Shown here: in pieces, positions 42,231 to 57,831 of the stretch
Numbering within the stretch: the first letter of the stretch is position 1
Layout: every line of letters begins with the position of its first letter
From: Nocardioides marmoriginsengisoli
GTDB taxonomy: Bacteria > Actinomycetota > Actinomycetes > Propionibacteriales > Nocardioidaceae
DNA length: 64,000 nucleotides
Direction of reading: 5' to 3'
NCBI RefSeq assembly: GCF_003725695.1
Contig: NZ_RJSE01000007.1
Span: 1,304,508 to 1,368,507 of the forward strand
Notes under the pieces: model-generated
The model's database searches: none
Told to the model about the DNA's origin: nothing
What the model saw: the letters and a program-made list of their open reading frames with translations, nothing else
Program-made: the position numbers and the translations under genes

Positions 42231-42332
42231 CCTCGGCGTGATGCGTCCTGGTACTGGAACCGGGGCGCGACCTGCATGCCTGACGTCGGCTGGCCGTGCT
42301 GTGTATCTCGGGGGGCCGGCAAGGAGTTCGGC

Positions 42333-45300
42333 GTGTCTGCAGGTGTGCACAAGCGGGTCAAGCGGGTTAAGCGGATCAGTGTCTTCAGCGTCTTCCTGAT
42401 GGTCCTCGGGGCCGTCTCGATGGGCTCGGTACTCACCCCGGCCCACGCTGCCGACGAGCTGCTCCAGGTCGTCAAGCTGGTGGACAACGCCACCCCGGAG
42501 CCCGGGGAGACGTTCACGTACACGATCCAGATGACCTGCTCCGAGCAGGACTGCCTGGACGCCCAGCTGACCGACGTGCTCCCGGCGGGCCTCGAGGGCT
42601 TCGGCATCGACAACGCCACCTTCACCCCGAACGCCGCGACCGTTCCGCGCTCGGTGACCTGGACTCCCGGGAACACCACTACGCCGCCGGCGACCGTGCA
42701 GCCGGGGACCGGGTTCACCGTCGACTTCCAGCAGGGGACCGACGACCCGGTCGGTACCGGCCTGGTGGCCGGGCAGACCTTCACCGTGACGCTCTCCCTG
42801 CGGGTGCCCGACGACTACCCGCCGGGCTCGGGCCCGGACATCGTGAACACCGCGCGCGCCACCGCGACCAACTCGGACCCGGCGCAGAGCAGTGCGACGG
42901 TGAACATCGACTCCGAGATCCGGATCGCCGTCGCCGTCGACAAGACCTGGGCGCCGGCCACCCAGTCCTTCCTGCCCGGTGCGGTCTCGACGATCGGGCT
43001 CTCGGCACGGAACACCTCGAACGTCCCGGTCGACACGATCACGATCCAGGAGCCCAAGGCCGCTCCCGACGGCGCCGCCGAGCTCGACCCGAGCAACCCG
43101 TTCACGATCACCGACTTCACCGGGTTCGACGACGTGTCCCTGCCGGCCGGCTTCACCGGCGTCCAGGTGGACGCCTACGTGTTCTCCGGGAGCACCTGGT
43201 CGTGGGTTGCCGGCGACCCGATCGCCACCCCGGGGGCGCTCGCGCTTCCCGACGGCGTCACCAAGGCGGAGGTCGGCGGCGTCCGGATCACCTGCACCGG
43301 CACGATCGCGCCCGGAGCCACCATGTCCCTGGACCTCGGGCTCGAGCAGCGGGCCACCGACCGTGACGACGACTCCGACCTGTCCACGGCGGCGCACCGC
43401 GTCGACAACGTGGCCACCGGATCGGTCGACGCGGACGGCCAGGACCCGGCCACCGACGACGGCGCGGCGACGCACGCGATCGCACCGCTGATCCCGTCGG
43501 TCGATGCCTCCAAGAACATCACCCCGGCCCGGATCACCGCCGGGCAGAGCAGCACCGCCACCATCGCCGGGACCAACGGTGACGACCCGGTCACCCGGTT
43601 GCACATCGCCGACTTGGATTTCTTCACCGAGGACATCGTGTTCGGCGGCTTCACCGCGCCTCCCACCTGGCCGGACGCCGCCAGCACGGCCACGATCGTC
43701 TACCACCACCTCGACGGTTCCTCGGAGACGGTGGACTTCGACGAGGGCGACCTCCCGGCGGACCCGAGCGAACCGATCTCCGGGTTCGAGATCACCTGGA
43801 CCGGCCCGATCGCGCCCAGCGAGAGCGGCGGGGCGGCCTTCCGGATCGACACCACCGAGGACGCCACCGGCGGCGCCCCCGAGCTCTCCCTGACGAACAA
43901 GGTCGACGCCGACGTGACCGCGGCGAACGGACTGACCGACGACGCGACCGCCAGCGACGGCCTGGAGATCACCGACCCCAGCGTCGACGTGACCCTGACC
44001 AAGAAGGTGCGTCCCTCCAGCGCGGTCGAGCCGGGCGAGACGGTGATCTCCTCGCTGACGACCCGGGCCACCGCGACCGGTGACGGGGCCGTCGTCGAGG
44101 ACATCGTCATCGAGGACGCCTGGGCGGAGGACTGCTCCGGGTTCTGGAACGCCTTCGACGCGACCGCGATCGCGCCGACCCAGGTGCCAGCGGGCGCCGA
44201 GCTGACCGTCGAGTTCCAGGCCCCGGACGGCAGCTGGCAACAGCTGGCGGTCTACGGCCCCGAGCCGACCGCCACCGTCTTCGAGCTCGCGGCGATCCCC
44301 GCCGTCGCCCAGGGCATCCGGTTCAGGCTGCACGACGCCGACGGCTTCCCGGCGGACACCACGGTGACGCCGAACATCGTCTTCGCCGCGCGCGCGGACC
44401 TTCGGGACCCGTCCTGCCCCGACCCGCAGCCGGACACCCCGACGACGTACGTCAACGCCGCGACCGCCGACGTCGCCGGGACGACCGCGGGCGGCAAGAA
44501 CCTGACCGCGGACGACGACGACACCGACGACGCGACCGTCACCTACCCGGCGGACGGCGGCGACGGGCCGGGGCCGGACGTCGACGTGGACAAGGCCTGG
44601 GACCGGATCGCGGTCAGCTCGCAGTCCGGTGAGCAGGCCGGTACGACGCTCACCTGGGACGTCACCGCCGGGTTCGGCTCGGTGCTGATCTCCGACGCCG
44701 CCACCGACCCCGCGACCGCCGACGTCGCCGGCACCGTCTTCGACGCGTTCGACCTGCTCCGGGTCGGCCACGCCGACGCCTCGGACGAGCCGTACTCCAA
44801 GGGCTGGTACCTCAAGTACGACACCGTCACCAAGGTCGAGCTCTTCCGCGGCGGCGGCTGGCAGGAGGTCGCCGCGCCCGGCGGCTCCTGGATGCGCGCC
44901 GACCGCGGCTTCAAGGGCTACTCGCTCACCGGTCCCGAGTCGGCCGGCACCACCGGCGTCCGGTTCACCCTGACCGAGACCGCCGCGGACACGGCCGCGC
45001 GCACCGCGGCCCGTCAGCCCGGCGCCGCCTTCGACCCGTTCGCACCCGCACCCGGCTCCGGGGTCGGCTCCGGGAGCAGCCCCCGCTCCTTCGACCTGGG
45101 CTGGCAGGTCCGCGACAAGACCCGCTCCGACGGCGGGTTCGTGATCGAGGACCGGGTGTTCAACAGCGCCGACGAGGGCGTCGTGACCAACACCGTCGCG
45201 ATCGAGGGCACCCCGATCGGCGGTGGCACCGTCGACCGGGAGACAGCGGCCGACACCATCCAGATCCTCGACCCGGACCCGGTCGTCGAGGTCACCAAGT

Positions 45301-48300
45301 CGGTCACGCCGACCGCCAACATCCACACGCCGCCGACCGGGACGCCCGCTGCCGAGTACCCGACGGCGACCTGGACGATCAGCGGCCACAACGGGTCCGT
45401 CGCGCGCGCGTCGTACGTCCGGATCACCGACCCGGCCACCTGCACCGACACCGCGCTGGGTGGCTGCCAGAGCGCCGGTACGCCGGCCGGTGCCCTCGCG
45501 AACCCGTTCGCCCTCGCGCGCGACTACCTGACCGACGCGGGCGCGCCGAACCCGTTCGAACGGTTCGACGTGCGCGGCCTGGCCATCGCGGCGAGCATCC
45601 CCGGCCAGGTGGACCTGGCCGCGACCAAGGTCTGGCTGCTCCGCTTCGAGGCCGGGACCTACACGCACGAGGAGACCACCGCGGCCGCGGTGAACGCGAT
45701 GACCCCGGCGCAGCTGGCGACCGTGGTCGGCTTCAGCGTCACCTTCCAGGACACCGATCCGGCCACCTCGGGCGGCACCCTCACCCAGGACAACGACCTC
45801 ACGATCACCGTCGACTCCCGGTTGCGGGCGACGTTGCGCAGCAGCGGCGCTCCCCAGGTGCTGCCGGCCCCGTCCACCCACGACGTCACCAACCGGGCCT
45901 TCGCCCAGTCCTACGACCCGGTCGGCAACCCCGGCACGGTCACCGGTGACGTCGACGACGCCACCACGGTGCTGACCGGCGGCATCGTCAACATCGCGCC
46001 GACCAAGTCGGTGTCGCCGGCGACGATCACCGAGCCGAAGCACGACGCCGGCGACGACCAGGTCACGGTCGTCCTGGGCGCCAACCAGGGCGCGAACCCG
46101 CGGAGCACGCTCTCCCCGGCACGCGTCGTGATCGAGGACCAGGCCGACTCCCCGGAGTTCTGGAACGCCTTCGACTTCACCGGGCTGGGGGTGATCTCGT
46201 TCCCGAGCGGCGCGAACCGCGTCCAGGTCGACCTGTACGACGGCACCACCTGGCACGAGGGCACGGCCGGCTCGACCGCGGTGCTCCCGGGCGGGGTGGC
46301 GAACGCCGACGTCCAGGGCATCCGGTTCACCTTCACCCGTGCCGACGGCGGGCTGTTCTCCTCGGCGGTCCCGGCTCAGAACTGGTCGGCCAGCGCGGCG
46401 ATCACGGTGGACCTGCGGTCGTCGTACCGGGACTCGGGGGAGCAGGTCGACTTCCCGAGCACGGTGCGCAACACCCAGACGTCGCAGTCCTTCCGGCCCG
46501 ACGGCAACGACTCGGACCCGGTCGACGCGACGGCCACCGTCACGCTGACCCCCGGGACCCACGAGCTCGAGGTCAACAAGCTCACCAACGACGGCAACCG
46601 GCTCGCCTCGGTCGGCGACGCGGTCCCGTTCAAGCTGACCCTGCGCAACTCGGGGACCGGCTACGTCACCCTGGCCGAGCTGCGCGACGCGCTGCCGTCC
46701 CAGCTCACCTACACCGGAGACCCGGCCCCGACCTTCACCGGATCTCCGCAGGGGACCCTGGGTGAGAACGTCGACGTCGCGGCCAGCCCGGACGGGTCGG
46801 CGCTGACCTTCGCCTGGCCCGAGGGCGGCCGGCGGATGCAGCCGGGGGAGACGTTCACGATCCATCTCTCCCTGGTCCTTCAGCCGGGCCTGGGCACCGG
46901 GCAGACGGCCACGAACACCATCACCGCGCAGACCGAGGAGCCGCTGACCCGTTGCGCGAACACGGCGTCCGGCGGCTCGATCACGACGGACTGGTCGACG
47001 GATCCGTACACCTGCGGAACCAGTGACTTCGTCGGCGTCGTCACCGGCCCGAACCTCTACACCGTGAAGGGGGTCCGAGGCTCGCTCCCGGGCGCCTACC
47101 AGCCGGGCAGCCCGGCGGCGGTCTGCACCCAGAACCTGACCGCGACCGGCGGCAGCTACTTCCGGTCGCCGTGCGTCGCGAACAGCCAGCTCGGCGGGAC
47201 CGACGACTGGGTGCTCAGCACCGCCAACGCCGGCACCGTGAACGTCGACGAGATGACGATCTTCGACCAGCTCCCGGTCGCCGGGGACCGGCAGATCATC
47301 TCCGGCGCGTCCCGCGGGTCGCAGTACCGGCCCGAGCTGGTGGCCGGGTCGCTGAACGTCGCGGCCCCGGCCGGGACCACGGTCACGACCCAGGTCACCA
47401 CCAGCGCCGACGTGTGCGTCGGCACCTGGACCAACCTGACCACGCAGCCGGTCTGCGAGCAGCAGGGCGAGAGCTGGACGACCGCTGACGGCAGCACCGA
47501 CTGGTCGAAGGTCACCGGCCTCCGGGTGCACCTGGACTTCACCACGACCGCGAGCGGCAACCTGCGTCCGGGTCAGTCCGCAGACGTGACCTACTCGACG
47601 ACCAACGAGCCGCGCACCGATGCGGACCCGAGCGGGGCGTCCACCGTCGTGCCGGCGGCGGACCAGCTCGCCTGGAACCAGTTCGGCGTCAAGTTCCGCT
47701 ACAGCGGCGTCGGCCAGTTCAGCAAGATCGCGCCGAGCCGGGTCGGGGTGCACCTGCGCTTCGGGTCGATCAAGGTCGTCAAGGAGATCACCGGTCCGGC
47801 GGCGCAGTACGCCGCGGACGAGTTCCGTGTCGAGGTCGCCTGCACCGTCGGTGACGTCGCGCTGGACCTCGGCTCCGATGCCGTGGTCGAGCTGAACGAG
47901 GGCAACGACTTCGAGGTCCGGATCGACGGCATCCCGCTCGGGGTCGACGGCACCGAGTGCGTCGTCACCGAGCAGGGCGACGTCGGCGAGTTCGGCGAAG
48001 CGTCCCGGACCGGGTCCCCGGCGACGTTGCTGATCACCCAGCCGACCGACCCGTCGCGGCCGATCGAGGGCCAGGCGGTGCCGGTGGCGCAGGTCGCCAC
48101 GATCACCAACGACTACCGCTACACCGGCCTGTCGGTGACCAAGCGGGTCGTCACGACGGCGACCACCCCGGTGCTCGGTCCGTTCACCTTCACGCTGTCC
48201 TGCACGACGGCCACCGGCATCCCGGTGACCTTCGACGACGACGGCACGACCGAGATCGAGTTCGTCCTCGAGGCGGGCCAGACCTACGACGCGCCCGCGA

Positions 48301-49286
48301 ACCGGATCCCGGTCGGCGCGGCGTGCGAGCTGACCGAGACGGACACGTTCTTCGCCGGCGAGATCGTGGTCACCGGTGACGACGTCGCGGACAACGGCGA
48401 CGGGACCGCGACGATCACCCCGGGGATCGACCCGGCCGAGGTCGTGGTCGCGAACGCCTACGACGCCGGCACGGTGACGCTGGAGAAGGTCGTCGACGGG
48501 GACGGAGCGGCGCGCTACGGCACCGGTGTCTTCGGTTTCGTGGTGACCTGCGACTTCCACGGCCGCAACGCCTTCGACGACGAGGTCGCGCTCCGGGCCG
48601 GTCAGTCCCGGACCCTCGGGCCGTTCCCGGTCGGGACCGTGTGCACCGTCGCGGAGCCCCGGACCGCGGGTGCGACCACGAGCGTGCTCGACCCGGCGGA
48701 CGGCGTGGTCACGATCGCCGCGCCGCTGCCGGACGAGGCGGTCTCCCAGGTCAAGGTCACCGCGACCAACACGTTCGACCTCTCCTCGATCGACGTCCGC
48801 AAGGTCGTCCGCGGCGACCGGTCGGCCGAGGGTGCCGCCGGTCCCTTCCGGGTCGGACTCGTCTGCACCTGGCAGGTCGACGGCGTCACCACCCCGGTGA
48901 CGATCCCCGGCGGCTCGGAGCGCCGGCTCAGCCGGGCGAACGGCTACCGGGCGTCGTACGCCGACCTGCCGGCGGCCGCGCGCTGCCGGCTGACCGAGCT
49001 GACCGTGCTGCCGCGGGTCTCGACCGAGGTGACCGCCGACGTCAACGGCGAGGTCACCACCGTCGACGGTCGCTCGGTGGCGATCGACCTGGGGAAGACC
49101 GACGGGCCGGGTCAGGCCTCGGTGACGGTGGTCAACACCTTCGCCGGGCCGTCGATCCACCCGCCGACCGACGGGGGACTCCCGAACACCGGGGCCCCGT
49201 TCGGTCGGGGACTGCTCCCCGCCGGGGTGCTGCTCCTGGTCGCCGGACTGGGTGCCGTCCTGTGGTCGCGACGGGCGAGGGCCTGA
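42333..49286 (+). CDS. Giant LPNTG-anchored surface protein with DUF5979 domains
   Basis: A 2317-residue exported protein. The signal peptide ends after about 32 residues (TPAHAADE). The body is a chain of beta-rich modules resembling DUF11/isopeptide-type domains, many starting with a VDVTLTKK-, VDKAW- or EVTKSV-type strand. About residues 1810-2270 hold four tandem DUF5979 modules, each with a Lys near its start and paired cysteines (GSIKVVKEIT, GLSVTKRV, GTVTLEKVVD, SIDVRKVVRG). The C-terminus has a sortase motif LPNTG (2283-2287), a hydrophobic segment and RRARA. AAGGAG precedes the GTG by 6 nt. It is a probable adhesin or fibre; no sortase gene lies in the window. Confidence 0.9.
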   Translation: MSAGVHKRVKRVKRISVFSVFLMVLGAVSMGSVLTPAHAADELLQVVKLVDNATPEPGETFTYTIQMTCSEQDCLDAQLTDVLPAGLEGFGIDNATFTPNAATVPRSVTWTPGNTTTPPATVQPGTGFTVDFQQGTDDPVGTGLVAGQTFTVTLSLRVPDDYPPGSGPDIVNTARATATNSDPAQSSATVNIDSEIRIAVAVDKTWAPATQSFLPGAVSTIGLSARNTSNVPVDTITIQEPKAAPDGAAELDPSNPFTITDFTGFDDVSLPAGFTGVQVDAYVFSGSTWSWVAGDPIATPGALALPDGVTKAEVGGVRITCTGTIAPGATMSLDLGLEQRATDRDDDSDLSTAAHRVDNVATGSVDADGQDPATDDGAATHAIAPLIPSVDASKNITPARITAGQSSTATIAGTNGDDPVTRLHIADLDFFTEDIVFGGFTAPPTWPDAASTATIVYHHLDGSSETVDFDEGDLPADPSEPISGFEITWTGPIAPSESGGAAFRIDTTEDATGGAPELSLTNKVDADVTAANGLTDDATASDGLEITDPSVDVTLTKKVRPSSAVEPGETVISSLTTRATATGDGAVVEDIVIEDAWAEDCSGFWNAFDATAIAPTQVPAGAELTVEFQAPDGSWQQLAVYGPEPTATVFELAAIPAVAQGIRFRLHDADGFPADTTVTPNIVFAARADLRDPSCPDPQPDTPTTYVNAATADVAGTTAGGKNLTADDDDTDDATVTYPADGGDGPGPDVDVDKAWDRIAVSSQSGEQAGTTLTWDVTAGFGSVLISDAATDPATADVAGTVFDAFDLLRVGHADASDEPYSKGWYLKYDTVTKVELFRGGGWQEVAAPGGSWMRADRGFKGYSLTGPESAGTTGVRFTLTETAADTAARTAARQPGAAFDPFAPAPGSGVGSGSSPRSFDLGWQVRDKTRSDGGFVIEDRVFNSADEGVVTNTVAIEGTPIGGGTVDRETAADTIQILDPDPVVEVTKSVTPTANIHTPPTGTPAAEYPTATWTISGHNGSVARASYVRITDPATCTDTALGGCQSAGTPAGALANPFALARDYLTDAGAPNPFERFDVRGLAIAASIPGQVDLAATKVWLLRFEAGTYTHEETTAAAVNAMTPAQLATVVGFSVTFQDTDPATSGGTLTQDNDLTITVDSRLRATLRSSGAPQVLPAPSTHDVTNRAFAQSYDPVGNPGTVTGDVDDATTVLTGGIVNIAPTKSVSPATITEPKHDAGDDQVTVVLGANQGANPRSTLSPARVVIEDQADSPEFWNAFDFTGLGVISFPSGANRVQVDLYDGTTWHEGTAGSTAVLPGGVANADVQGIRFTFTRADGGLFSSAVPAQNWSASAAITVDLRSSYRDSGEQVDFPSTVRNTQTSQSFRPDGNDSDPVDATATVTLTPGTHELEVNKLTNDGNRLASVGDAVPFKLTLRNSGTGYVTLAELRDALPSQLTYTGDPAPTFTGSPQGTLGENVDVAASPDGSALTFAWPEGGRRMQPGETFTIHLSLVLQPGLGTGQTATNTITAQTEEPLTRCANTASGGSITTDWSTDPYTCGTSDFVGVVTGPNLYTVKGVRGSLPGAYQPGSPAAVCTQNLTATGGSYFRSPCVANSQLGGTDDWVLSTANAGTVNVDEMTIFDQLPVAGDRQIISGASRGSQYRPELVAGSLNVAAPAGTTVTTQVTTSADVCVGTWTNLTTQPVCEQQGESWTTADGSTDWSKVTGLRVHLDFTTTASGNLRPGQSADVTYSTTNEPRTDADPSGASTVVPAADQLAWNQFGVKFRYSGVGQFSKIAPSRVGVHLRFGSIKVVKEITGPAAQYAADEFRVEVACTVGDVALDLGSDAVVELNEGNDFEVRIDGIPLGVDGTECVVTEQGDVGEFGEASRTGSPATLLITQPTDPSRPIEGQAVPVAQVATITNDYRYTGLSVTKRVVTTATTPVLGPFTFTLSCTTATGIPVTFDDDGTTEIEFVLEAGQTYDAPANRIPVGAACELTETDTFFAGEIVVTGDDVADNGDGTATITPGIDPAEVVVANAYDAGTVTLEKVVDGDGAARYGTGVFGFVVTCDFHGRNAFDDEVALRAGQSRTLGPFPVGTVCTVAEPRTAGATTSVLDPADGVVTIAAPLPDEAVSQVKVTATNTFDLSSIDVRKVVRGDRSAEGAAGPFRVGLVCTWQVDGVTTPVTIPGGSERRLSRANGYRASYADLPAAARCRLTELTVLPRVSTEVTADVNGEVTTVDGRSVAIDLGKTDGPGQASVTVVNTFAGPSIHPPTDGGLPNTGAPFGRGLLPAGVLLLVAGLGAVLWSRRARA

Positions 49287-52481: not shown

Positions 52482-54920
52482 CTACCAGCCGGCGCCGAAG
52501 CAGAGGAACGGGACGACGTCGTCGGTCTCTGCGCTGACCCGGGCCAGCGCGTCCGCGGGTGCGGCGCCGCCGGCGACCTGGTGGTGCCAGGACGCGAACA
52601 CCTCGCAGGCGAGGTCGTCGGCGACCAGGGCGAGCGACGAGAGCACCGCCCGGGCGCCGGCGTGCAACCAGACGGCGCTCATCCCGAGGGACTCCTCGCT
52701 GTGCAGGACCGAGCTCTGGCCCAGGTCGCACGCGGAGAGCACGACGACGTCGGGCACCCGGGGGAGCAGGTCGATGTCGTGCCCGAACCAGGGCCCGTCG
52801 GCGAGCTCCACCGCGGCGAACAAGGGGTGGTCGCCCGGATGGGTTCCGTGACCGGCCAGGTGCAGCAGGTCGACCCGGGCCGCGAGCCAGCCCGCCCGGA
52901 CCGAGTCGGCCTCGGCACCGGCCAGGACGTGGCCGCGCGGCCAGCTGTCGTGCGCGCGGCGTACCTCCTCCTCGGCGCGCGCCAGTCGCGGCCCGGCCAG
53001 GAAGCCGACCTCGCGCATCGCGCCGATCGGCTCCCGGGCCGATTCCAGCCACGCGGTCGCGGACGTCGGGACCGTGACCGGCCGTCCGATCAGTCCGGGG
53101 AGCTCGGTCCAGGGCGTCCCGGTCAGGAGGGCCGACGGGGTGAGCACCAGCCGTCGGTAGCCGACGGTGGACAAGGTCGGCCGGATCAGCAGGTCGGCGA
53201 CCTTGGCCAGGTCGGCGCGCAACGAGGTCCGGACGGCGTCGCCCATCGGGCCGGCGCGGTTCTGGGCGGCGAAGTCCAGGTCCGCGGCGATCCGGTCGAG
53301 CAGGGTGCGCACCGGGGCGGCCTCCCCGAGCGGGATCACGGTGGCATCGGTCGCGGTGACCGCGAGCGCGGTCAGGGAGCCGTCCAGGACGAGGTGCGCG
53401 ATCAGCGCGCTGTCGTCGACGGCGAGTCGTGCTTGCAGGGTGGCGAGGTCGGTCGGCTCGCCGACGGTGCCCTGGGTGGCGAACCAGCTGTGCGCGCGGA
53501 TGCGGTCGCGAAGGACGCGGCGGGCGGGCACGTCGGCCGGGTCGGCGAGGCGGAGTGCCGTCAGGTCCGCGGCGAGCCCCGGGTCCGGGGGCGGGCGCAG
53601 CGAGGTGACCCGTGAGGCGAGCGCGCGGGCCCGCTCGGACCACTCGAACAGAACCGCGGGGGACCCGTCGGCCATCGCCGCCCGCAGGCCGAGGCGGGCG
53701 AGGTGCTGGCCGTGCCCGACCGTCGAGGTCTGCAGGTCCAGGGAACCGAAGGTGGCCTGCCAGGAGTGCAGCTCACCGAGTCCCTGACGTGCGTACGAGC
53801 GCGACCTGCCGGGGTGGTTCCGCGCGGCGGCGTGCTCGGCGCGCAGCTCCCGGGTCAGCAGCCGGATGCTGATCGGGGAGTCGGCGTTCGTCCGCACCTT
53901 CGCCAGCCGGGCCGCCGCATCGGGCAGCTCGCGCCGGCGGATCGCCAGCCGGGCGGTGTGCAGGGCGAGCCGGTCGGCGTCGTGGCGGAGACCTGCCTTG
54001 CGGAGGTCGGCCGCCAGGGCGTCGGCGCGCGTGAGGAGCGACTTCGTCGTCGCGCCGCCCTCGATCTCGGCGATGACGACGGCGGCACGTGCCTGGGTCG
54101 CCGGGACCGGGCTGCCGTGGGCGTCGTACCGGCGGGAGGCGCGGGCCGCGAGCGCCCGGCTGCGTGCCGGGTCGTCGGCCAGCACGGTCCGGGCCAGGAT
54201 GATCTCGCAGTCGGCCTGGAACCGCCGCAGGCCGGCGTTCCCGTACGCCGTGACGGCGGCCTCCAGGGCGGCTGCCGCCTCCTGCGCCCGTCCCGACGCG
54301 AGCAGCACCTCGGCGCGGTCCTGCTCGACGATCGCCTGGTTGATCGGAGCCTCCTGGATCAGGACGGCGGCCGCCTCGTCCATGCCGCGGATCGCGGCGA
54401 CCAGGTCGGACCGGAGGAGCTGGGCGTAGGCCAGGTTGAACTGGGCCTTCGCGCGGAGCAGGGTCTCGCCGGCGGCGCCGTACAGGTCGGTGGCCCGGGT
54501 GAAGTCGTCGGCGGCGCGCAGCGGGTCGTTCAGCTTGAGGTACATGTAGCCGCGATTGGTGTGGACGCCGGCGAGGTGCTCGGGCAGGTCCTGCAGCGGT
54601 TCCAGGGCCGCAGCGAACTGGTCGCTGGCCTCGGCGGTGTCACCGTTGCGCATCAGCACCATGCCCAGCTGCGCGTGCGCCAGCCCGAGGGCGAGCCGTG
54701 ACACGCCCTCGCGGGCCAGCACGCCCTGGCACAGCGAGACGGCGCCGGCATGGTTCCCGAGCTCGCCCTCGCCCCAGGCCGCGGTGATGTCCAGGCGGTC
54801 GATCAGGTCGGCGTCCGCGGTTCTCGCGCGCGCCTGGGCGATCAGCTCCAGGGACCGCGCGTACTCGGAGGTGTTCGCGGCCTCGACGGCTCGTTGGTGG
54901 AGGTCCTCAGCGTCGCGCAC
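52482..54920 (-). CDS. TPR-CHAT caspase-like protease
   Basis: An 812-residue protein. Residues about 1-430 are tetratricopeptide-like helical repeats (AVEAANTSEYARSLELIAQA; HLAGVHTNRGYMYLKLNDPL; and similar). The C-terminal CHAT domain (about 520-812) carries the two caspase-type catalytic positions: His about 691 in LHLAGHGTH and Cys about 731 in VVLSACDLG. It is the last gene of a unit with an ECF-like sigma factor, a small protein and a subtilisin-like protease. TPR-CHAT proteins elsewhere are activated by partner binding and cut a specific substrate (Craspase). The substrate here is unknown. A target within the same operon is my inference. Confidence 0.88.
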   Translation of the reverse strand: MRDAEDLHQRAVEAANTSEYARSLELIAQARARTADADLIDRLDITAAWGEGELGNHAGAVSLCQGVLAREGVSRLALGLAHAQLGMVLMRNGDTAEASDQFAAALEPLQDLPEHLAGVHTNRGYMYLKLNDPLRAADDFTRATDLYGAAGETLLRAKAQFNLAYAQLLRSDLVAAIRGMDEAAAVLIQEAPINQAIVEQDRAEVLLASGRAQEAAAALEAAVTAYGNAGLRRFQADCEIILARTVLADDPARSRALAARASRRYDAHGSPVPATQARAAVVIAEIEGGATTKSLLTRADALAADLRKAGLRHDADRLALHTARLAIRRRELPDAAARLAKVRTNADSPISIRLLTRELRAEHAAARNHPGRSRSYARQGLGELHSWQATFGSLDLQTSTVGHGQHLARLGLRAAMADGSPAVLFEWSERARALASRVTSLRPPPDPGLAADLTALRLADPADVPARRVLRDRIRAHSWFATQGTVGEPTDLATLQARLAVDDSALIAHLVLDGSLTALAVTATDATVIPLGEAAPVRTLLDRIAADLDFAAQNRAGPMGDAVRTSLRADLAKVADLLIRPTLSTVGYRRLVLTPSALLTGTPWTELPGLIGRPVTVPTSATAWLESAREPIGAMREVGFLAGPRLARAEEEVRRAHDSWPRGHVLAGAEADSVRAGWLAARVDLLHLAGHGTHPGDHPLFAAVELADGPWFGHDIDLLPRVPDVVVLSACDLGQSSVLHSEESLGMSAVWLHAGARAVLSSLALVADDLACEVFASWHHQVAGGAAPADALARVSAETDDVVPFLCFGAGW

Positions 54921-54926
54921 GCGACC

Positions 54927-56627
54927 TCACGGCTGCAGCCGGTCCAGGGGTCCGGTGCCCTCGGTGATCCGCGTCCAGGCCCGGCTGACCGCGGCGGCGC
55001 TGTCGTCGTCCTGGGGGTCGATCGGCCCGAGCTCGGCCGCGAACAGCCCCGCCCACAGCGGTGCCGAGAACGACGTCCCGCTCCAGAGACCGAATCCGGC
55101 GCTGAAGTCGTCGGGGTCGATGGCTTCCCGGATCCGTCCGTCGAGCTCGACCCGGGCGATCGGCTCGTAGCCGCCCTGGAAGTTGGTCGGCATCGTGCTC
55201 ATCACCGCGGCCCCCGGGGCGAAGGCGCGCACCCAGGGACCGGCATTGCTGAACAGCGCGTCGCTGCCGTTCGGGTTGAGGGCGCCGATCGTCACCACCG
55301 GGACCGCGTCCGGGGTCGCTTGGTACGGGCCGGCGCCGGAGGTCCACGGGCTGAACGACGCCGGGAACCCGGGGCGGGCGGTGGAGTCGTTGCCCGCCGA
55401 GCAGGTCACCACCACGCCGGCCTTCCCGAGGACCTGCAGCGGCAGGTAGATCGTGGCGTCGAAGGCCAGGTCCGCGGGCGTCTCGTGGTAGTACCCCATC
55501 GACAGGTTCAGGACGTCGATCGCTCGGCCGCCCTGCTCGCCCTCGCGGTGCCGGCGGGCGAGCTCGGCGATCTGGGTGAGCGCGTCGATCAGGTCGCTCT
55601 CCGGGATCGGGCCGGCGGACGGGGTGATCCGCCAGGCGATGATGTCGGCGTCGGGGCAGGCCTGGTGGACGATCCCGGCGATGAAGGTGCCGTGGCCCGA
55701 GTCGGTGTCGATCTCGCCGTCGAGCATGCCCACCTGGTCCGGGACGATCTCCGGAGCCGTCAGCGGGTCGGTGTAGCCGATCGGATTGCCGTCGATCGTG
55801 ACGTCCTGCTGGACGATGTCGTCCAGCCAGGGGTGGGTGCCGCACCCGGTGTCCAGGAGGGCGACGACCGGTCGTCGCCCGGTGAACTGGTCCTTGTCGA
55901 GACGCCGCGGCGCAGGGCCGACGTACGCGATCGGCTGGCGTCCGCCGGACCCCGGGTAGCCGTAGGTGGCGACGGCGGCGCCGGAACCCTCGTACGGGTG
56001 TCCCACGGCGAACGGGTGGCCGACGGCGAACGGGTGGCCGACCGCGAACGGGTGCCCGACGGCGAACGGGTGCCCGACCGCGAACGGGTGCCCGACCGCG
56101 AACGGGTTCGCCTCGGTGTCGCCGAGGGTGAGGAGGTGGTCGAGGCCGACGCCCGCGACCGGCCCGCCGCGCAAGGTGCGGAGGTGCTGCAGGACGGTCC
56201 ACGCGTCCGGCGCCTCGGTGGCGTCGGGGCCTTCGGCGAGCAGCTCGACCCGGGCGATCCCGGTGTCGAGCTGGTACGCCGGCAGCTCCCGGTTCTCGGC
56301 ATCGCGGCGCTCGATCTGCCAGCCGAAGCGCTGCGCGATCCGGGACAGGTCGTCGAGCAGGTCGGTGTCCTCGCGGAGCACCGTCCGGCGCGCGACGATC
56401 AGGCGCGAGCTGCAGTACCAGGTCGGCCCCGGCCGGACGTCGGTGGCGCGGAGTGCGCTGGCCGGGTCGAGCGCCCGGGGCGCCAGCTTGTCGATCCGGG
56501 CCTGCTCGGCGGCCCGGGCTCGTGCGACCCGCGCGTCGCGGCGCCGCCGTCGCTCGATCCGGTCGCGCAGGGCTGTGAGCTCCTCGGCCGAGAGCTTGGT
56601 GGCGCGGGCGGGCTTCTCCTCGGGCAT
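54927..56627 (-). CDS. Cytoplasmic-type subtilisin-like (S8) protease with FAVGHP repeats
   Basis: A 566-residue S8 protease. The catalytic triad is Asp about 259 (VALLDTG), His about 312 (SGHGTFIAG) and Ser about 519 (GTSFSAP), with the oxyanion Asn near 413 (SAGND). The first 170 residues form a charged, Arg-rich N-terminal domain; residues 176-211 hold six exact FAVGHP hexapeptides. There is no signal peptide, so it appears to act inside the cell. It lies 6 nt before the TPR-CHAT gene and behind the sigma-factor unit. Repeats of this kind lack a known role; they may act as a flexible, aggregation-prone or pro-region linker. Confidence 0.9.
   Translation of the reverse strand: MPEEKPARATKLSAEELTALRDRIERRRRRDARVARARAAEQARIDKLAPRALDPASALRATDVRPGPTWYCSSRLIVARRTVLREDTDLLDDLSRIAQRFGWQIERRDAENRELPAYQLDTGIARVELLAEGPDATEAPDAWTVLQHLRTLRGGPVAGVGLDHLLTLGDTEANPFAVGHPFAVGHPFAVGHPFAVGHPFAVGHPFAVGHPYEGSGAAVATYGYPGSGGRQPIAYVGPAPRRLDKDQFTGRRPVVALLDTGCGTHPWLDDIVQQDVTIDGNPIGYTDPLTAPEIVPDQVGMLDGEIDTDSGHGTFIAGIVHQACPDADIIAWRITPSAGPIPESDLIDALTQIAELARRHREGEQGGRAIDVLNLSMGYYHETPADLAFDATIYLPLQVLGKAGVVVTCSAGNDSTARPGFPASFSPWTSGAGPYQATPDAVPVVTIGALNPNGSDALFSNAGPWVRAFAPGAAVMSTMPTNFQGGYEPIARVELDGRIREAIDPDDFSAGFGLWSGTSFSAPLWAGLFAAELGPIDPQDDDSAAAVSRAWTRITEGTGPLDRLQP
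55995..56102 (-). repeat. Six tandem 18-bp units encoding FAVGHP
   Basis: Within the subtilase gene, six 18-bp units run head to tail. On the plus strand each carries GAACGGGT, and units differ only by a few synonymous changes (GTGGCC/GTGCCC, CGACGG/CGACCG). The encoded peptide FAVGHP is the same in all six. The near-identical DNA suggests recent expansion by slippage, so copy number may vary between strains. Confidence 0.9.
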
Positions 56628-56636
56628 GGCGGAACC

Positions 56637-57122
56637 TCAGATCCAGAAGGGAGGGGTGACGAGCGGGCGGGTGCTGCTCGGATCCGAGACGAAGGTGAGC
56701 CGGCAGGCTCCTGTCGGGGTGACCGGGAACTCGAAGCGTCCGGACTCGCCGACCTGGGTTTCATCGGTGGTGGGCTTGGCGCCCATCGAGGTGAGGAAGA
56801 CGGTCATCGGCTGCGCCGGCACGACCCAGCCGTCCAGGCGCGCCTGGCGCTGGCTCCGGGAGATCCGGAGCTGGACCCGGAAGCCGGGCCCGAGGTACTC
56901 CAGCGACCAGGTGCCGACCTCGTCGGGGGCGCGCAGCATCGCGACCGAGCGGACCCCGGAGAGCTCCTTGTCCCACTCGACCAGGGTCAGCAGCTCGGCG
57001 TCGAGGTCGTTGGTCTCGATCCGGGCCAGGACGCCCTCGGCGAGGTCGTCGGGCGGTGGGTCGAGCTTCTCCCAGAGCGCGGCGATCGCGTCCAGGAGCT
57101 CGTCGTCGTCCGGGCCGGCCAT
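56637..57122 (-). CDS. Sigma-associated small protein of unknown function
   Basis: A 161-residue protein. The N-terminal helical part (LLDAIAALWEKLDPPPDDLAEGVLARIETNDLDAELLTLV) and C-terminal beta-rich part (VQLRISRSQRQARLDGWVVPAQP and ESGRFEFPVTPTGACRLTF) match a Streptomyces-type family found beside ECF sigma factors, from memory. The ATG overlaps the sigma-factor stop (ATGA, 57122), and a subtilase and TPR-CHAT protease follow. It has no membrane segment. It is a candidate regulator (anti-sigma-like) or protease substrate; neither can be shown from sequence. Confidence 0.7.
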   Translation of the reverse strand: MAGPDDDELLDAIAALWEKLDPPPDDLAEGVLARIETNDLDAELLTLVEWDKELSGVRSVAMLRAPDEVGTWSLEYLGPGFRVQLRISRSQRQARLDGWVVPAQPMTVFLTSMGAKPTTDETQVGESGRFEFPVTPTGACRLTFVSDPSSTRPLVTPPFWI

Positions 57123-57721
57123 CAGAACGCCCCCTCGCTGATCAGCTCGCCGCGGAGCTTGTCCAGGCAGCGGGCCCGGGTCGGGCCGATGCTGCCCACC
57201 GGCATGTCCAGCGCCTCGGAGACCTCGGCGTACTCGGGACGCGGGCCGGCCGCGAGCATCCGCAGCAACGACTGGCAGCGCTCGGAGATGCGGCTGAGGC
57301 AGCGCCGCAGGACGACCTGGTCGTCGGCCAGCACGATCCCGTCCTCGGGGCCGTCCACGGCGGGCAGCGCCCAGGACAGCACGTCGCCGTCGGTGGCGAC
57401 CTCGCGGCGTACCCGCTTGCTGACCTTCCACGCCTCCCGGCGCGCGGTGGTGCAGAGCCAGCCGGAGACCGCGAGCGGGCTGCTGATCGCCTCGGCGTTG
57501 TCGACCAGGGTCAGCCAGGTGTTCTGGACGACGTCCTCGGCCGTCGCCCGGTCCAGGCCGGTCGCGCGCACGACCTGCCAGAGGATCGGGCTGAGCAGCC
57601 GGACCAGCTCGTCGAGCGCGTCCCGGTCGCCGTCGCGCCAGGCCGTGAAGGCAGCGGCGGACGCGGTCCAGCGGGCGCTCGCAGGCACCTCGGTACCGAA
57701 CCCCTCAGAAACGCTGACCAC
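57122..57721 (-). CDS. ECF-like RNA polymerase sigma factor
   Basis: A 199-residue sigma-70 family protein. Region 2 (FTAWRDGDRDALDELVRLLSPILWQVVRATGLDRATAEDVVQNTWLTLVDN) is split by the usual helix junctions, and region 4 has CLSRISERCQSLLRMLAAGP and VSEALDMPVGSIGPTRARCLDKLR. It lacks regions 1 and 3, so it is extracytoplasmic-function-like. It heads the unit sigma, partner, subtilase and TPR-CHAT. The start is uncertain: GTG 57721 was chosen, but a more upstream in-frame region (to 57790) and a GTG near 57691 are possible. TAGATT lies about 20 nt upstream of GTG 57721. Confidence 0.85.
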   Translation of the reverse strand: MVSVSEGFGTEVPASARWTASAAAFTAWRDGDRDALDELVRLLSPILWQVVRATGLDRATAEDVVQNTWLTLVDNAEAISSPLAVSGWLCTTARREAWKVSKRVRREVATDGDVLSWALPAVDGPEDGIVLADDQVVLRRCLSRISERCQSLLRMLAAGPRPEYAEVSEALDMPVGSIGPTRARCLDKLRGELISEGAF

Positions 57722-57831
57722 ATCCCTGCACCCGTCGAATCTAGTGGAGGGTGCGGATGCGGGGCCAGAGCCCGCCCTGATCAGATCCATGCCGACCCAG
57801 AGCGCTCACCCGGGCCGGTGATACGTCCGGG

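Follow-up and report, generated by a model that had tools for sequence, protein, structure and literature searches.

How might a bacterial sigma factor be controlled when its gene shares a unit with those of two proteases and a small protein of no recognized family? The question is raised by four adjacent genes of Nocardioides marmoriginsengisoli (GCF_003725695.1, NZ_RJSE01000007.1), lying in a stretch of 64,000 nucleotides (nt) that we analysed as a whole and call the window; all coordinates are window positions. The genes span 52482-57790 on the - strand in the order SIG (a sigma factor of the extracytoplasmic function, or ECF, type), SMALL (a partner protein of 161 amino acids, aa), S8 (a subtilase), and CHAT (a protease joining tetratricopeptide repeats, TPR, to a CHAT domain). 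SIG and SMALL overlap by 1 nt in a stop/start junction, with 9 nt between SMALL and S8 and 6 nt between S8 and CHAT. Coordinates and order agree with a preliminary description of this DNA, which had noted the shared direction, the overlap, and the close spacing and had likened the unit to the Craspase switch of type III-E CRISPR. We found that the four genes are a real conserved unit that recurs in many actinobacteria, and we judge it moderately probable that they encode a cytoplasmic switch of the ECF54 type, in which CHAT is a sensor that cuts SMALL, an anti-sigma factor, and so frees SIG.

A conserved unit of four genes

Homologues of SMALL were found in 129 of 393 genomes of the class and 38 of 100 of the family and, at a stricter cut-off applied across the phylum, in 28 of 296 genomes, 20 of which lay outside the class. 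Neighbourhoods were counted at 141 non-duplicate loci including the window, after removal of L119 and L120 as duplicates of L024 and L023; some genomes contributed several loci, and at 33 loci the available stretch was short on one side. At 137 of the 141 loci the immediate upstream neighbour of SMALL was SIG; CHAT was present in 112 and S8 in 102, with both proteases at 98 loci and neither at 25 (76 and 19, respectively, among the 108 loci without a short side). This was the check that the preliminary description had proposed for its four-gene unit, and rather than failing to co-occur in other genomes, the genes were found together. The loci showed 15 arrangements when incomplete ones are included and 8 distinct orders among complete loci, and such a multitude of gene orders is better accounted for by a common function than by a frozen order.

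Co-occurrence extended to genes that are not linked. For the protease-less SIG-SMALL loci, 18 of 25 genomes were searched whole, and this CHAT type was present elsewhere in all 18, although in G075 the distant CHAT was split across two contigs. Examination of 12 such distant CHAT loci showed S8 adjoining CHAT in every one, and 11 were unlinked to SIG-SMALL; L221, a second copy in G390, was linked to SIG and SMALL. The CHAT type was present in 71 of 196 genomes, and all of these but G084 also had SMALL (70 of 71); of the 125 genomes lacking CHAT, 20 were listed, and SMALL was absent from each of those. In 20 genomes of other classes, which were chosen for their SMALL and compared by position only, SIG was found in all 20 (directly upstream of SMALL in 18) and CHAT in 19 (at most 10 kb from SMALL in 12). 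Taken with the 141-locus count and the co-occurrence of unlinked genes, these genomes indicate that the four-gene association is not due to chance. G360, G271, G408, G303, G515, and G563 each yielded three or four matches to SMALL, such that several parallel systems may coexist there. At a few loci, genes were matched in two pieces (S8 in L122, SIG in L128 and L139, SIG and CHAT in L157, CHAT in L165), reflecting a frameshift, an insertion, or an assembly error.

SIG (57122-57790, - strand) carries sigma regions 2 and 4, with matches to Sigma70_r2 (PF04542, 3.9e-7) and to the sigma70-ECF model TIGR02937 at 49 bits, above its cut-off of 42.9. Searches of the PDB with one protein at a time were uninformative; for profile A5, the top PDB matches were ECF sigma factors. 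Both proteases look catalytically active: for S8 (54927-56627, - strand; PF00082, 3.4e-18), all 101 aligned homologues keep the triad D259/H312/S519 and N413, and for CHAT (52482-54920, - strand; PF12770, 6.8e-17), H691 and C731 are retained by 99 of 101, with alignment gaps at these residues in the remaining two. The complete S8 triad and the CHAT His and Cys that the preliminary description had picked out were hence borne out, as were its sigma regions and its TPR repeats (TPR_2, 1.8e-6). The profile of the CHAT domain matched the 'CHAT domain protein' chains of PDB entries 8d9f and 7x8a at 2e-8, which we take to be Craspase proteins, and a chain named Csx29 (7y9x) at 8e-4, and by this profile comparison the domain is a distant homologue of Csx29. 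As all four proteins are devoid of transmembrane-like stretches (the highest 19-residue mean hydropathy being 1.66), the pathway is probably cytoplasmic, S8 included.

The structure model of S8 was poor (mean predicted local distance difference test, pLDDT, of 48), yet retrieved subtilisins, and its N-terminal beta-alpha-beta region (residues ~69-169) may be a prodomain. Between this region and the S8 domain sits a feature that was absent from the preliminary description, namely an 18-bp x 6.3 tandem array encoding (PFAVGH)n (55994-56107, - strand; Tandem Repeats Finder score 179), which would thus lie where a prodomain joins the enzyme. Of 102 S8 proteins, the window's included, 38 have at least three tandem units of 5-7 residues in this position. 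The repeat unit was near-uniform within a gene and differed among species, giving 35 strings, some of which are the same unit in another phase. Near the operon, a 2336-aa open frame at 42276-49286 resembles, by eye, a surface protein that is rich in repeats and whose end is LPxTG-like.

A predicted promoter and its targets

Upstream of SIG, we found a predicted SIG-dependent promoter, GTATCA-N16-CTC (57800-57824, - strand; exact match), which the preliminary description did not contain and beyond which the ATG at 57790 starts after 9 nt. It was the single exact match in 64 kb, against 0.11 expected; as at least one match appeared in 10 of 100 shuffles, the case rests on its position and on the recurrence of this motif, equally spaced, ahead of other SIG genes. 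GTATCA occurred upstream of SIG in 36 of 94 non-redundant stretches, as compared to 0.9 expected, and 45 SIG-upstream GTATCA sites had CTC at 16 nt in 28 cases and at 17 nt in 12. For these 40 sites, the first in-frame start codon fell 8-10 nt after CTC in 32 (at 9 nt in 23), suggesting a leaderless message. When both strands of all loci (2.1 Mb) were scanned, CTC followed at 15-17 nt in 142 of 225 GTATCA sites; 44 of these preceded SIG, 39 preceded S8, 7 preceded SMALL or a SMALL paralogue, and 52 lay elsewhere.

The motif was enriched, within two genera, solely in genomes bearing the system: 14 such genomes held 72 matches versus 16 for a reversed-pattern control, and the counts were 20 versus 21 in 14 genomes of these genera that lack the system. 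Beyond these genera the picture was mixed, as further system-bearing genomes gave 15 motif matches versus 5 control matches (G064), 12 versus 3 (G106), 8 versus 1 (G209), and 2 versus 0 (G063 and G156), and G057 fell below its control (8 versus 11); G142 (4 versus 11) and G180 (15 versus 12) are not among the SMALL-positive genomes. Upon sorting sites by the gene that leads each unit, we observed the motif ahead of SIG in 41 of 84 cases, ahead of S8 in 36 of 68, and ahead of CHAT in 0 of 34. This distribution indicates that SIG probably drives its own unit and S8 in many lineages, and that production of CHAT is probably independent of SIG, which is what a sensor would call for. The motif was missing in several families, chiefly those with unlinked loci; the family with such loci yielded no common promoter, and GTATCA was absent from all 15 SIG-upstream and all 11 S8-upstream stretches. 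A literature search combining ECF with GTATCA returned no paper, the motif content of the primary ECF54 papers lying outside that search.

Other candidate elements were set aside. The TGGAGCGGC...TCGTTCGCC element that lies upstream of SIG probably encodes the active-site motif of S8; CACTAGATT was present in six close relatives and in the window. A GTATCACCAGTCAC...CTC site, found in three genomes of the same genus, has no near downstream gene in the gene call of L023 and may be due to chance.

The predicted regulon seems small and lineage-specific. The genome of the window has three motif sites. Besides that of the operon, there is one within a called gene, and the third lies 9 nt ahead of a 169-aa gene that has no Pfam match and is unlinked to the operon (L258, on contig 14 of G000; site 320644-320668). 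Homologues of 169-170 aa with 32-40% identity occur in two other genomes of the genus (L237, L277), each with the motif 8-9 nt before its start. Other targets that recurred were a cNMP-binding protein in three genomes (62-69% identical; its open frame runs across the motif, and a downstream start is assumed), a hemerythrin protein in three genomes (74-94% identical), HopA1-like proteins at four loci (L128, L133, L134, L154; 28-46% identical, with PF17914 at 1.5e-18 in the one scanned, L133), and STAND-like ATPases near the four-gene locus in L178, L180, L185, and L193, which start 8 nt after the motif and match AAA_16 at 1.2e-6, under the curated cut-off. A 105-aa gene following CHAT was a target in two genomes that each contain just two motif sites. 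Many of the 52 sites without a family gene, and many of the 96 sites in the target survey, lay inside called genes or next to no convincing gene.

Coupling among the proteins and the proposed switch

SMALL (56637-57122, - strand), which we regard as a candidate anti-sigma factor and protease substrate from its family alignment (A1) and structure model, matched no family above threshold; its only hit was a sub-threshold one to CarboxypepD_reg at 0.011, and 15 of 19 SMALL members weakly matched PF13620, the carboxypeptidase regulatory-like domain. The model, built from 5 sequences (pLDDT 60 overall, with block means of 65-80 across residues 71-161), shows three N-terminal helices of low confidence and a C-terminal beta-sandwich. 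The 'carboxypeptidase' of the ECF54 literature is hence probably this regulatory-like beta-sandwich of SMALL and not a protease. Close relatives carry paralogues of SMALL that retain the beta-sandwich and lack the conserved N-terminal part; these lie at 1121-1564 of L021, 1509-1952 of L022, 5187-5531 and 6671-7180 of L023, and ~9590-9925 of L121. At each of the four loci, one paralogue is preceded by a GTATCA-N16-CTC site of its own, and the paralogues are perhaps decoys.

We quantified the coupling among the four proteins as partial correlations of pairwise distances over the 83 loci that have all four genes, with bootstrap ranges. High values were obtained for SIG-SMALL (0.39; 0.29-0.47), SMALL-CHAT (0.52; 0.42-0.61), and CHAT-S8 (0.54; 0.44-0.63), and lower ones for SIG-CHAT (0.20; 0.05-0.36), SIG-S8 (0.15; 0.01-0.29), and SMALL-S8 (-0.04; -0.16 to 0.06). 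The coupling roughly follows the order SIG-SMALL-CHAT-S8, a chain that suits CHAT acting on SMALL, SMALL acting on SIG, and CHAT being paired with S8.

The same values bear on two alternatives. One, proposed from gene context in the ECF54 passages of a 2022 review (PMC8999054), is that SIG is held at a low level through direct degradation by the proteases, without any anti-sigma factor, SMALL being an adaptor or accessory. The weakly positive correlations of SIG with S8 and with CHAT are in line with such degradation, yet we consider it unlikely, because what that context lists as a 'carboxypeptidase' is probably the non-enzymatic domain of SMALL discussed above, because SMALL remains with SIG where both proteases are unlinked, and because S8 often lies under a SIG-type promoter, which would be odd for a constant brake. 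Slightly more doubtful still, in our estimate, is that SMALL is a positive co-factor of SIG, a co-activator or stabilizer, with the proteases having other targets. The fixed SIG-SMALL pairing would agree with this, and a beta-sandwich domain would suit protein binding; however, SMALL is coupled to CHAT about as closely as to SIG (0.52 versus 0.39, reversed in the loci with a short S8), and the paralogues that share the promoter keep the beta-sandwich part alone, which fits a decoy or substrate at least as well.

We hypothesize instead that SMALL is the link that CHAT severs. CHAT would be made independently of SIG and would take up a signal through its TPR half, while SMALL would keep SIG inactive, perhaps via its N-terminal helices. 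Once activated, CHAT would cut SMALL and thereby free SIG, which would transcribe from GTATCA-N16-CTC promoters its own unit (a positive feedback), S8, and a few genes that vary among lineages. S8 would thus be induced by SIG, and CHAT and S8 would act on each other, by activation or shut-off. Sequence comparison supports the four-gene unit and its catalytic centres, as well as the promoter, the separate control of CHAT, the cassette exchange described below, and the approximate coupling order; the binding of SIG by SMALL, the cleavage of SMALL by CHAT, the signal, and the role of S8 are what we infer.

Several observations weigh against this switch. No anti-sigma family matched SMALL in the domain-library and profile searches, and the fold look-up was non-discriminating (no Foldseek match below E 1e-3, and Z of at most 7.8 to many unrelated beta-sandwiches), so that no function can be assigned to SMALL by fold. 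The coupling is correlational, with distances that are non-independent within the tree, and its order blurs upon dividing the loci by S8 length: values for SIG-SMALL, SMALL-CHAT, and SIG-CHAT were 0.29, 0.59, and 0.28 at 35 loci with a long S8, and 0.55, 0.34, and 0.32 at 48 loci with a short one. The motif was missing before 43 of 84 unit-leading SIG genes and 32 of 68 unit-leading S8 genes, and the large system-bearing genome G057 showed no enrichment (8 matches versus 11 for the control). Finally, CHAT occurred without S8 within the available stretch at 14 of 141 loci, indicating that S8 may be dispensable.

Some pairs of close genomes carry S8-CHAT as a cassette that is divergent and has been exchanged. 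Between L021 and L022, identity fell from 88-97% in SIG, SMALL, and the flanks to 51-78% across S8-CHAT, the boundaries lying close to the gene ends; between L026 and L140, both from single-contig genomes, it was 87-97% in the flanks and SIG and 55-81% from SMALL through the end of CHAT. We compared all 10 close pairs that have all four genes and a SIG at least 92% identical, leaving out the misaligned SIG of L139/L143. Relative to the flanks, synonymous divergence of S8 was clearly raised in 4 pairs, partly in 2 (L139/L143, L202/L203), and not in 4, and where raised it indicates import of divergent alleles. Amino-acid-changing divergence of the TPR half was roughly double that of the CHAT domain or higher in 4 of the 10 pairs; the other 6 showed no such excess.

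The exchange of the cassette points to a fast-changing signal. It would also suit an immune or kin-recognition (abortive) system, in which variable TPR and S8 parts recognize an invader or non-self and the regulon supplies the effectors, a reading that is compatible with the CHAT-SMALL switch and that we regard as possible, though tentative. The identity drops confined to S8-CHAT or SMALL-S8-CHAT, the raised S8 divergence, and lineage-specific targets such as the HopA1-family and STAND-like ATPase genes all agree with it. Against it, the PADLOC models for specific defence systems gave no match (only a generic subtilase at 2e-5 and weak IetS, BovA, and TPR matches were obtained), S8 divergence is not raised in 4 of the 10 close pairs, the TPR half shows no excess in 6, and the hemerythrin and cNMP-binding targets suit ordinary stress.

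Comparison with known systems

A literature search for an earlier description yielded the ECF54 review PMC8999054 as the only directly relevant source, the primary ECF54 papers that it names (Huang 2015; Casas-Pastor 2021) lying outside that search. As far as its ECF54 passages go, the review lists the protease neighbours and gives proteolytic control without an anti-sigma factor as a proposal, on the grounds that carboxypeptidase, subtilase, and CHAT proteins lie nearby. Our unit is alike in having an ECF sigma factor beside a subtilase, a CHAT protein, and a protein with a 'carboxypeptidase' domain (here the weak PF13620 match), and differs in that we interpret the last as a non-catalytic partner of the sigma factor. 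The association of sigma factor, subtilase, and CHAT is hence already published; what we add is the promoter, the targets, the co-occurrence, and the cassette exchange. With a predicted promoter, a short target list, a candidate for the cleaved anti-sigma factor, and a prediction of the order in which the steps follow, the control of ECF54 becomes directly testable. A caspase domain, a TPR protein, and an ECF sigma factor likewise share a neighbourhood in the EACC2/caspase conflict systems (PMC8195603), although the families there, in the parts of that source that describe them, are EACC2, TRADD-N, and DUF1822, with no S8-SMALL pair.

The closest comparison is with the Craspase or CASP systems of type III-E CRISPR (Cas7-11, Csx29, Csx30, CASP-sigma), where Csx29 cleaves Csx30, an inhibitor of an ECF sigma factor, according to the sections of PMC10028731 on these proteins. 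Both have a TPR-CHAT protease and an ECF sigma factor in one unit, with related CHAT domains, whereas our four genes include an added subtilase; no CRISPR effector or array was seen among the four genes, no CRISPR-specific scan having been made. SMALL, at 161 aa, is far shorter than Csx30, for which the same source gives at least 565 residues, and none of the 13 PDB matches to the SMALL profile up to E 10 was named Csx30, which is a test of sequence only. The Craspase-like switch put forward in the preliminary description is supported in part: its logic is plausible, given the relation of CHAT to Csx29, and SMALL is coupled to both SIG and CHAT in evolution, but SMALL is not recognizably a Csx30. 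With related CHAT domains and no sequence similarity between SMALL and Csx30, the unit may work like Craspase and is not classed as a member. A bolder form of this idea, which we hold a shade more tentatively than immunity as such, is a phylum-wide, CRISPR-free counterpart of Craspase, whose variable TPR-CHAT protein would sense invaders or non-self, cut the anti-sigma factor, and free the ECF sigma factor for lineage-specific effectors behind one promoter, the co-exchanged subtilase serving as an induced second protease. If CHAT indeed cuts SMALL, sigma switching by protease release would be a wider bacterial strategy that extends beyond type III-E CRISPR.

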